64,000 nt of DNA from Acidihalobacter prosperus (GTDB taxonomy: Bacteria; Pseudomonadota; Gammaproteobacteria; DSM-5130; Acidihalobacteraceae), in the NCBI RefSeq assembly GCF_000754095.2, contig NZ_JQSG02000002.1, forward strand, positions 124,001 through 188,000, written 5' to 3'. This document shows positions 44,802-47,783 of the stretch, one piece after another. The position numbers and the translations under genes are program-made. The notes below the pieces were generated by a model that did no database searches, was not told the origin of the DNA, and worked only from the letters and a program-made list of their open reading frames with translations. Position 1 is the first letter of the stretch, and each line of letters starts with the position of its first letter.

Positions 44802-45242
44802 TCAGCGCAGCCACTCGACGATATGGGCCTCCAGATCGGAGACCACACGCTCGCTGACGCAGCGGCCGCGCACCGAAATCCCCGCGCGATGCACCGCCTC
44901 GCGGTCGCCGCATACCAGATAATGCCATTCGGGTAATCCCCGCCCCTCCGCCAGGCGACGATAGGCGCAGCTTTGCGGCAGCCAGTCGAAACTCGCCAGA
45001 TCCTCGAAGGTCAGCTGGATGCAGTCGGGCACGATCGCGCGCCGATGCGCGTAGTCGCGGCATCTGCAATCCCCGGGGTCGAGCAGATGGCAGGCCACGT
45101 CGGTGAAATATAGCTCGTTGGTATCCTCGTCCTGCAGTTTGTGCAGGCAGCAGCGGCCGCAACCGTCGCATACCGCCTCCCACTCCTCCCGACTCATCTC
45201 GGCCAGCGGGGTGTCGCGCCAGAAACCGGGCCGCAGGGCCAT
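44802..45242 (-). CDS. YcgN/UPF0260-family cysteine-rich protein
   Basis: The 146-residue protein carries the metal-binding-like cysteine cluster [20 protein letters not shown] and [20 protein letters not shown] and CIQLTFEDL typical of this uncharacterised family (CxxCGxCC; possible Fe-S or zinc centre). ATG 45242 has GGAGGG seven bases upstream, better than the GTG at 45248 that overlaps the preceding stop. Confidence 0.92.
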
Positions 45243-45244
45243 CG

Positions 45245-45913
45245 TCACGCCCTCCCGGCCATGCGTTCGATGCGTGCGCGTACGGCAGCAAAGGCGGACG
45301 GCGTCACATAGTGCAGTACCGCGCGCCCGTCTTCGGCGCGCAACAGCGCCAGCCCGCGCCGCGGATACAGCCAGTAGACCTGCCGCTTGCCGACATCGAT
45401 CCGTGCGGCCGGCGCGCCGAACGACTTGAGCACCAGATCCTTCTCGTAACGCACCTTGGGTGCGTAGGTGATGCCCGCGATAGGCAATCCAAGCGCCTTG
45501 CCGGTGTCGGATTCCGTCAGTTGAAGACGCCAGGCGCCGGTCGCGGTGGGCTGACGCCCGACGGCGCGCGCCGCCAACCGCGCCAGCAAGCCGCCGGACG
45601 CTGCCAGACTGACGTCGACGCGCGCCTCGAACATGCCCAGCGACACATTGCCGTAATAAGCCTCCAGACTCATGCGCCCGGCCGGGGTCACAAACAGCGC
45701 GACCTGGGGAATCTTGCGCAGGCGGGCGTTGAGCGCGCGCGCGGTGGTCTTGCCCAGGGTGATGCCGAACACGCGCGAGGCGCCGTCGGGCAGGACGTCC
45801 ACCTGCCAGGGCAGATTCGTCGCCCGCTCGCCACCACCGCGCGCAAACCAGCTTGCAAGGCCGAGCGCGGCCACCAGCAGCAACGACACCAGCAGCAAAC
45901 TGTTACGCAGCAT
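45245..45913 (-). CDS. Membrane-anchored protein of unknown function
   Basis: The 222-residue protein has one N-terminal hydrophobic segment ([19 protein letters not shown]) and a periplasmic domain containing [20 protein letters not shown] and [23 protein letters not shown]-like text. I do not recognise the family. A G-rich site precedes the ATG. It is coupled to the YcgN gene: the stop lies within a few bases of both candidate YcgN starts. Confidence 0.75.
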
Positions 45914-46009
45914 GTCCCCCCCCAAAGCCTCTGCGGCATTGTAGCACCCGCCCGGCGACCGACCGGCTGATATACTGCGGCCCACCCGAGCCTGTGGAGA
46001 TGCCCCGAC

Positions 46010-46618
46010 ATGCTGCCCGATTATCAGCCGGACACCACCTTGTGCGAGCGGTTCGCCGACTTTCGCGAACGCGACCACTGGGTCTTCTACGCGCCCAACA
46101 CCAGCGAGGGCGAGGAGGCCAGAGCCTATGGCGTGCTCTTCGACATCCTGCGCAAGCAGACCGCGATCATGATGATTTCGCCCGCCGACCCCGCACGCTA
46201 CGAGCCGGTTTATTACGACGCGCTCAAGTACAGCCTGCCCACGATCCGCCACAGCCGGCTGTTCACCTCCAAGGTGCCCCGCAACAGCCGCGTCTACTTC
46301 ATCGAAGAGCCCGAGCCGGTCGCCGACTTCTACGCCTGCGCCGACGTGGTGCTGCTCGGCGGCACGCTCACCGATGAGGCGACCTCCATCCCCGACCTGA
46401 CCACCCCGATCCTGGCCGGCAAGCCGGTGATCGCCGGCCCTGGACAAAGCCGCCCGGAAGTCGCCGCCGCGGTCGCCGCCGGCGCGATCCTCAGTGCCGG
46501 GGCGGTCGAGGACATGGCCGAGGCAATCCGCACGCTCAAGGCCGACGCCGAAGCGGCGAAGGCGCTGACCGAACGGGCGCGCGAGTGGCTGCAGATACGC
46601 GAGGGCGACGCATCGTGA
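46010..46618 (+). CDS. Kdo-transferase (WaaA)-like C-terminal half protein
   Basis: The 202-residue soluble protein aligns by eye with only the C-terminal glycosyltransferase domain of WaaA: NTSEGEEA for STHEGEEA, IMMISPADPARYEP for the PRHPERF strand, and FYACADVVLLGGTL followed by GKPVIAGPG. Key donor-site residues are altered: PRHPER becomes SPADPAR and the GGHNPLEP Glu loop is lost. No N-terminal acceptor domain or membrane anchor is present. It may be catalytically inactive or have a changed role. The stop overlaps the next start (GTGA). Confidence 0.75.
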   Translation: MLPDYQPDTTLCERFADFRERDHWVFYAPNTSEGEEARAYGVLFDILRKQTAIMMISPADPARYEPVYYDALKYSLPTIRHSRLFTSKVPRNSRVYFIEEPEPVADFYACADVVLLGGTLTDEATSIPDLTTPILAGKPVIAGPGQSRPEVAAAVAAGAILSAGAVEDMAEAIRTLKADAEAAKALTERAREWLQIREGDAS

Positions 46619-47127
46619 ACGGGCGCGCGGACGAGGCGCCGCGCGCGGCGCTGGACGCCTTGTATGCGGGCTGCCGCTCGCTGATTCTCGCCACGCTGGA
46701 CGACGACGGCGTGCCGCACGCCAGCCCCGCGCCCTTCGTCCGCGACGACGCGCACGGCGATTATTACGTCTACGTCAGCGGCCTTTCCGCACATACCCGG
46801 CACCTCGCGACCGGACGCCCGGCCTCGGTCCTGCTGATCGAGGACGAGGCCGCCACGGCGCAGATTTTCGCCCGTGTCCGCCTCAGCCAGACATGCGCCG
46901 TGGACGAGATCGCCCAGGCGTCGCCGGCATGGGGGCATCGGCTCGAAGCCTTCTCGGAACGATTCGGCCAGGTGATCGAGGTGCTGCGCTCGCTGCCCGA
47001 TTTTCGCCTGTTCCGCCTGCGGCCACGGGATGGCGGGCGCTTCGTGACCGGCTTCGGCCGCGCTTTCGATCTGCGCGGCGACGAGCTCGTTGCCGTCGGC
47101 CCGCCCGCCGCGCCGCCCGAGGGCTGA
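46615..47127 (+). CDS. HugZ-like FMN-binding split-barrel protein
   Basis: The 170-residue protein has the pyridoxamine-5'-phosphate-oxidase-like fold: LILATLDDDGVPHASPAPFV, YYVYVSGLSAHTRHL, SVLLIEDEA and IFARVRLS, then RSLPDFRLFRLRPRDGGRFV. These are HugZ/HutZ-type features, a family including haem-degrading enzymes. No His-rich C-terminal loop is seen. It starts at GTG overlapping the preceding stop, so the two genes are coupled. Confidence 0.85.
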   Translation: MNGRADEAPRAALDALYAGCRSLILATLDDDGVPHASPAPFVRDDAHGDYYVYVSGLSAHTRHLATGRPASVLLIEDEAATAQIFARVRLSQTCAVDEIAQASPAWGHRLEAFSERFGQVIEVLRSLPDFRLFRLRPRDGGRFVTGFGRAFDLRGDELVAVGPPAAPPEG

Positions 47128-47141
47128 CGGCGCCGCGCCGC

Positions 47142-47783
47142 TCAGCCCTTGCGCGCGCGGAAGTCCCGCAGCCAGGCCTGGGCGGCCTCGCCGGCGCGCA
47201 GCCGATCCGCGGCCGACAGCTCCCGCGCGACGCGTTCGCGATAGCGCGCCGCATTGGCCACACCCAGTTCGGCGGCGATGAAAAACCACTTGTAGGCGTC
47301 GACGTCGCTGCGCGGCACACCCTCGCCCATGGCGAAGCAGCGCCCGAGATTGCTGGCGGCATGCGCCTCGCCCGCCTCGGCCGCGCGGTAATACCACTGC
47401 GCCGCCTGTTCGGCATCCTGCGGCAGCCCTTCGCCCGTGTCGTATTTGAGGCCCAGCCGAAACTGCGCCTGCGGGTTGCCGGCCTCCGCGGCCACCCAGT
47501 ACCAGCGCGCCGCCTCGTTGACATCGGCCGGGATGCCGTCGCCATCATCGAGCATCAGCGCCAGATTGAAGGCCGCCTCGGCATATCCCTGCTCGGCCGC
47601 GGCACGGTAGTAGGCGGCGGCGCGTGGCTTGTCTTCGGGCATGCCGTCGCCCTGGTCGTGAATCACGCCCAGATTGAACTGCGAACGCGCATCGCCCTGC
47701 TCGGCCAGCAGACGCCACAAATGCAGCGCGCCGACACGGTCGCCATGCAGGTAGAGGTCGAGTGCGGTGTTGAAATCCGTCAT
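47142..47783 (-). CDS. Sel1-repeat (tetratricopeptide-like) protein
   Basis: The 213-residue protein consists of about five Sel1 repeats (e.g. GDARSQFNLGVIHDQGDGMP, AEAAFNLALMLDDGDGIPAD, PQAQFRLGLKYDTGEGLP). No signal peptide, so cytoplasmic. Sel1 proteins are adaptors; the partner is unknown. It is divergent from the glycosyltransferase gene. Confidence 0.9.
   Translation of the reverse strand: MTDFNTALDLYLHGDRVGALHLWRLLAEQGDARSQFNLGVIHDQGDGMPEDKPRAAAYYRAAAEQGYAEAAFNLALMLDDGDGIPADVNEAARWYWVAAEAGNPQAQFRLGLKYDTGEGLPQDAEQAAQWYYRAAEAGEAHAASNLGRCFAMGEGVPRSDVDAYKWFFIAAELGVANAARYRERVARELSAADRLRAGEAAQAWLRDFRARKG

Follow-up and report, generated by a model that had tools for sequence, protein, structure and literature searches.

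A free-standing WaaA-related GT-B half in a gammaproteobacterial family that has dropped its acceptor half at least twice

The first of two overlapping genes (ORF1 and ORF2) in the window, the whole 64,000-nucleotide stretch of DNA analyzed here, encodes what sequence comparison and predicted structure identify as a free-standing homolog of the CMP-Kdo-binding C-domain of WaaA. Relatives show that the other half was lost on at least two occasions and that the conserved surface has shifted, and for these reasons ORF1 probably does a different job from WaaA. The reading preferred here, with a probability of about 0.6, is that a WaaA-derived GT-B half became a binding module for something other than Kdo. 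The proteins concerned form an unnamed gammaproteobacterial family, a new variant within the GT-B/WaaA kind; coupling of ORF1 to its HutZ-like neighbor, ORF2, is a novelty restricted to a single genus. Features are collected in Table 1.

Table 1. Features at the ORF1 locus (positions within the window). Neighbor counts refer to regions of 20 kb or shorter at 15 family genes, those of G093, G226, G210, and G244 being shortened by contig ends.
Feature	Position	Strand	Evidence or occurrence
YcgN-like protein, PF03692, CxxCxxCC	44802..45248	-	near family gene in 9/15 genomes
Divergent neighbor, 222 aa, N-terminal hydrophobic stretch	45245..45913	-	no Pfam match; near family gene in 7/15 genomes
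TGGAGA, ribosome-binding-like, upstream of ORF1	45995..46000	+	inspection of three genus sequences
ORF1, predicted free-standing C-terminal GT-B domain, WaaA-derived family, 202 aa, ATG start	46010..46618	+	profile, alignment, tree, fold match
Residues 9-117 of ORF1, strongly constrained	46034..46360	+	dN/dS, close pairs
Family motif KY-x5-R[HQ]xR-xx-TS-xx-P-x3-R, residues 73-94 of ORF1	46226..46291	+	14/14 members (the same 14 from which the pattern was derived), 0/39 WaaA
GTGA start/stop overlap, ORF1/ORF2	46615..46618	+	read from sequence
ORF2, HutZ/HugZ-like split barrel, 170 aa, GTG start, no C-terminal histidine	46615..47127	+	profile and structure matches
Sel1-repeat protein, PF08238, convergent	47142..47783	-	near family gene in 7/15 genomes

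Homology, distribution, and domain loss in the ORF1 family

The WaaA models of NCBIfam cover ORF1 by their C-terminal part only, and weakly: NF004386 aligns over profile positions 224-414 of 433 at 44 bits (E 1.2e-11), short of the curated equivalog cut-off of 524, and a Pfam scan of ORF1 returned no match to PF04413, the N-terminal acceptor domain. Its best PDB sequence match is 4bfc, a WaaA C-domain structure (E 1.5e-5). The same entry is the nearest solved structure to an AlphaFold2 model of ORF1 (pLDDT 74.4, pTM 0.77), a model biased toward WaaA by two rows of that protein in the input alignment (Foldseek E 1.1e-10; Z 21.9, rmsd 2.6, 188 aligned residues, 19% identity; Foldseek rows beyond the GT-B fold, e.g., receptor entries, were disregarded). 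A three-way alignment gave ORF1 29% and 28% identity to the C-domains of two WaaA from other organisms, and the family and WaaA alignments are homologous over the C-domain (hhalign 99.95%); alignment and fold match alike point to a GT-B C-terminal Rossmann domain. The earlier note had described the first protein as a stand-alone WaaA C-domain scaffold keeping SEGEEA, ADVVLLGGTL, and GKPVIAGPG, with the membrane anchor gone and the PRHPER and GGHNPLEP loops changed. All of this is borne out: the three motifs are present, there is neither anchor nor acceptor domain, and PRH and GGHN..EP are missing.

A profile of six orthologs, searched against 369 genomes of the class, identified the family in 14 (E ≤ 1.5e-53), the next match standing at 4.5e-21, where WaaA-length proteins start. 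A fifteenth family gene, frameshifted near residue 117, occurs in G001, of the same genus as the window; ORF1 is intact in the two other genus members. Of 299 genomes drawn from across the phylum, none but that of the window gave a match at E ≤ 1e-30; in the orders to which three members belong, the family gene occurs in 1/1, 3/3, and 1/12 of the genomes. A search of contigs from close relatives returned seven loci, with no ORF1 ortholog among them. All 14 members match WaaA models in NCBIfam (member 1 at 60 bits versus 438). These NCBIfam matches are weak and chiefly to WaaA, and no Pfam family was over its cut-off in six two-domain members scanned. Those six and the one-domain protein L054, the seven other members scanned, gave no PF04413 match. 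No published description of the family or of the gene pair was found in an open literature collection, judged by titles and the opening lines of abstracts.

The 14 members form one group in a tree with 18 WaaA C-domains (the first 18 carrying GGHN and of at least 400 aa), and the split between family and WaaA has support of 100/100; the frameshifted G001 gene was excluded from the alignment, tree, and invariant counts, its two pieces being compared separately. The window genome also has a full-length WaaA, on another contig, with PRHPERF, GGHNPLEP, and a PF04413 match of 230.6 bits. A recent truncation of waaA, which the earlier note had named as an outcome that would refute it, is rejected, as the full-length gene lies elsewhere and the family split is deep.

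Seven of the 14 members (G244, G131, G339, G226, G023, G210, and G093) are proteins of ~335-380 aa that keep the GT-B layout, with an extra N-domain of ~125-165 aa. The other seven (G000, G002, G003, G004, G030, G175, and G282) start at the inter-domain linker, where the two-domain G244 has ALPEYAPDTSLCERF and ORF1 has MLPDYQPDTTLCERF. The family N-domain is collinear with that of WaaA and not significantly similar to it alone (hhalign E 0.16); the whole two-domain alignment matches WaaA at E 2.5e-34. Well supported branches force at least two changes of state on the tree. Half of the members still have a reduced N-domain, so the stand-alone form arose by secondary loss and does not define the family; the absence of an acceptor domain claimed in the earlier note holds for ORF1 and fails as a family feature. 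An N-domain profile found nothing at E ≤ 1 in seven of eight one-domain genomes and, in the eighth (G282), a single place at E 0.2 with three stops; leave-one-out profiles recovered all seven two-domain loci at E ≤ 3e-12, values scaled to an assumed genome size. The N-domain was dropped in two lineages without detectable replacement. Gene fission, with the N-domain moved elsewhere, is rejected on this search: seven of eight genomes without a match and one with the interrupted place in G282, at a sensitivity of 7/7.

Other WaaA-like proteins occur in these genomes. A second, degenerate one of ~400 aa (L084, G000:C1 near 589.8 kb; also L109-L111) lies between msbA-like and lpxK-like genes in the window genome and in G210, and in G339 and G131 it precedes an lpxK-like gene; the flanking genes are presumed to be msbA and lpxK from their sequences. 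Of the 15 genomes with a family gene, 12 give a weak PF04413 match (24-33 bits) and G210 gives one at 43 bits, and a diverged WaaA-like protein, L112 (G093:C4 near 174 kb; PF04413 53.9 bits), adjoins canonical WaaA. KdsB is present (257-310 bits) in G131, G339, and G210 (L109-L111, L113, L114, L118). Canonical WaaA was not found in these three whole genomes (completeness 100% for G131 and 99% for G210), the only PF04413 match being of 27-43 bits; another protein may transfer Kdo there.

Conserved residues and selection

The WaaA signatures tested are absent from all 14 members of the family. On counts redone on all 39 WaaA, PRH occurs in 39, G.N..EP in 34, GGHN in 33, S[ST]H.GE and SVGE in 32 each, and [EQ]TE.WPN in 31. 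Of these, PRH and GGHN..EP are taken to be the donor-site motifs of WaaA, and the glutamate of SVGE is presumably its catalytic residue. The family retains E35, the GG(T/S)L turn, G143-P144, and, mostly, P58 and R63. Because E35, the turn, and mostly P58 and R63 are kept, part of nucleotide binding may survive; two-domain members could still be enzymes.

Conservation has shifted along the domain. Mean pairwise identity over residues 75-99 is 0.678 in the family versus 0.337 in WaaA, and over residues 111-150, the site of the WaaA donor loops, 0.455 versus 0.619; the comparison used 31 of the 39 WaaA, picked for GGHN and a length of at least 400 aa, such that their G/H/N invariance is by construction. 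The proposal of the earlier note that this is a repurposed GT-B fold and not an enzyme of LPS synthesis therefore has good support with regard to what ORF1 is not, the WaaA motifs tested being absent from the family and a different segment conserved. Placing all invariant residues in a rebuilt donor pocket is unsupported, as the loops at that edge contain 9 of the 21, a share compatible with chance (P 0.18); invariants and near-invariants together give 16 of 35 (P 0.04). The location of the new functional site on ORF1, read from one segment, is a guess.

The first half of the ORF1 domain is the constrained part, under purifying selection. For four close pairs, dN/dS (Nei-Gojobori) was 0.110, 0.050, 0.079, and 0.157 over residues 9-117 and 0.432, 0.188, 0.349, and 0.414 from residue 118 to the end; two wider pairs gave 0.18 and 0.30 versus 0.67 and 0.54 for the same parts. 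The split between slow and fast parts is a trait of the family, appearing also in a two-domain pair with intact genes. The frameshift in G001 falls at the border of the two parts and may be either a sequencing error or a real truncation.

Gene neighborhood and ORF2

The older neighbors of the family gene are YcgN (as we take the PF03692 protein to be), an unnamed membrane protein or lipoprotein, and a Sel1-repeat gene. The divergent 222-aa neighbor carries a DLPW motif and, in 7 of 15 genomes, separates YcgN from the family gene; a single-sequence fold (pLDDT 41) was too poor for use. G023 has a Sel1-repeat gene 7 kb off, outside the count in Table 1. The divergent neighbor of the one-domain family gene is minC in G030 and G175 (L044, L076), followed in G175 by minD- and minE-like genes; the min names are our presumption.

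A HutZ-like gene lies near the family gene in 3 of 15 genomes, all of the window's genus, and coupling to ORF1 was found in 3/3 genus members and 0/12 of the other family-bearing genomes. Whole-genome searches recovered HutZ-like homologs in 6 of those 12, always unlinked (two of them weak, E 2e-4 and 5e-4), and none in the sister genus. Given this restriction, the HutZ-like gene most likely arrived in the window's genus, coming in between ORF1 and the Sel1 gene. The overlap itself, which the earlier note had called translational coupling, reads GTGA in the window genome and G001 and ATGA in G002, the GTG start of ORF2 overlapping the ORF1 stop; such coupling implies that ORF1 and ORF2 are co-produced. 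The TGGAGA element, ~10 nt 5' of ORF1, recurs in both other genus members. Lack of conserved linkage in relatives, which the earlier note had named as refuting, is what the genomes outside the genus show, whereas the pair recurs within it; a functional pairing with the HugZ-like protein is accordingly weak.

The assignment of ORF2 itself as a HugZ-like split barrel was sound: it matches TIGR04110 (HutZ) at 133 bits (E 7e-39; cut-off 225) and the HugZ model at 87 bits (cut-off 240), in both cases below cut-off. Its best solved relatives are alr5027 (1vl7), HutZ (3tgv), and HugZ (3gas), with E values of 8e-24 to HutZ (3tgv), 2e-14 to HugZ, and 5e-11 to 6vna (Pden_1323). In alignment, HutZ His63, Arg92, and Asp132 (PMC3472187) correspond to H60, R89, and D129 of ORF2. 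The histidine nearest the C-terminus of the 170-aa ORF2 is residue 108, and the C-terminal axial histidine (HutZ His170, HugZ His245) is missing. Pden_1323 is described in PMC8131568 as a c-type heme oxygenase without the N-terminal domain and C-terminal histidine loop of HugZ, retaining a pocket His and an Arg. ORF2 has the same layout, with no N-terminal domain and no C-terminal histidine and with H60 and R89 present, and by this analogy a heme-peptide role is plausible.

Competing readings and related systems

Under the binding-module reading, the family would have split anciently from WaaA or from a shared GT-B ancestor, losing the anchor and the Kdo-transfer signatures, and two lineages would then have dropped the entire N-terminal domain. 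The ORF1 domain would no longer transfer Kdo. Its likely contact surface would be a new basic patch on and after the third strand (K73, Y74, R80, H81, R83, T86, S87, and R94), and the basic character of segment 73-94 would suit a ligand that is anionic or a partner protein that is acidic. That the acceptor half is dispensable argues for binding, not catalysis; its loss on two occasions, the disappearance of the Kdo signatures, and selection on another segment together make a binding module the most likely role. In the window's genus, ORF1 would later have joined the HutZ-like gene in a two-gene operon.

A family that remains a glycosyltransferase, with another donor and with an acceptor half supplied by another protein such as the WaaA-like ORF at msbA/lpxK, seems doubtful. 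The GT-B layout of the ~335-380-aa members speaks for it, as do the second weak PF04413 protein in the window genome and most family-bearing genomes and the precedent of KdoT for base-independent inverting GT-B catalysis (PMC12856342). However, the family N-domain was not found elsewhere in the one-domain genomes beyond the interrupted E 0.2 place, the msbA/lpxK-type ORF is present also alongside two-domain members and so does not complement the loss, and conservation within the family is lower at the donor loops. Decay presents a different picture: ORF1 has lost its N-domain, change is rapid over residues 118-202 (dN/dS 0.43, G000-G002), and G001 is frameshifted near residue 117. A remnant heading for loss is nevertheless very improbable, with dN/dS over residues 1-117 at 0.02-0.11 among genus members and, for the slow part, at 0.05 between the two species of the sister genus, the fast/slow split shared by an intact two-domain pair, and the start site and upstream signal conserved among genus members.

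Compatible with the binding-module reading, though unlikely, is a functional pair in which the GT-B half serves as scaffold, regulator, or feeder for a HutZ-like degrader of heme or heme peptides. Retention of the start/stop overlap in all three genus members at dS near 0.7-1.2 is consistent with such a pair, as is the Pden_1323-like set of ORF2 residues (PMC8131568); against it stand the lack of linkage in the 12 genomes outside the genus, six with homologs, and the state of G001, where ORF1 is frameshifted and ORF2 still open. More specific, and distinctly improbable, is the idea that the donor half is now an autonomous sensor or docking module whose functional surface has shifted from the nucleotide cleft to the strand-3 edge, wired in one genus to a HutZ-like c-type heme-peptide enzyme; if true, it would join envelope chemistry to heme turnover. 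A heme link, should it exist, would be confined to a single genus.

These data show that a GT-B donor half can stay under selection once the acceptor half is gone, as has happened twice, and with a shift of its conserved surface. In profile-based annotation, the members receive weak scores as Kdo transferases, a label that is very probably wrong. This small and testable family may reveal an unrecognized envelope or metal-linked function around ycgN.

Among known systems, the ELM1 family, which we take to be PF06258, was not among the Pfam matches at E ≤ 1 of any member scanned. ORF2 resembles HutZ, HugZ, and Pden_1323 in its split-barrel homology and its equivalents of His63 and Arg92, and departs from HutZ and HugZ in scoring under both NCBIfam cut-offs and lacking the C-terminal histidine. 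KdoT of Acinetobacter baumannii ("ELM1-like") is, according to PMC12856342, a WaaA-independent envelope GT-B protein with no single essential catalytic base reported; the ORF1 family resembles it as a GT-B protein apart from WaaA, and any closer relation would be putative. ORF1 shares with WaaA/KdtA (GT30; 4bfc, 2xci) the predicted C-domain fold, an alignment over the full length of that domain, E35, GG(T/S)L, and G143-P144. The ORF1 family differs from WaaA/KdtA in lacking the anchor, SVGE, ETELWPN, S-T-H-x-G-E, PRH, and GGHN..EP, in the absence of the N-domain from 7 of 14 members, and in a conserved segment that has moved to residues 73-99.
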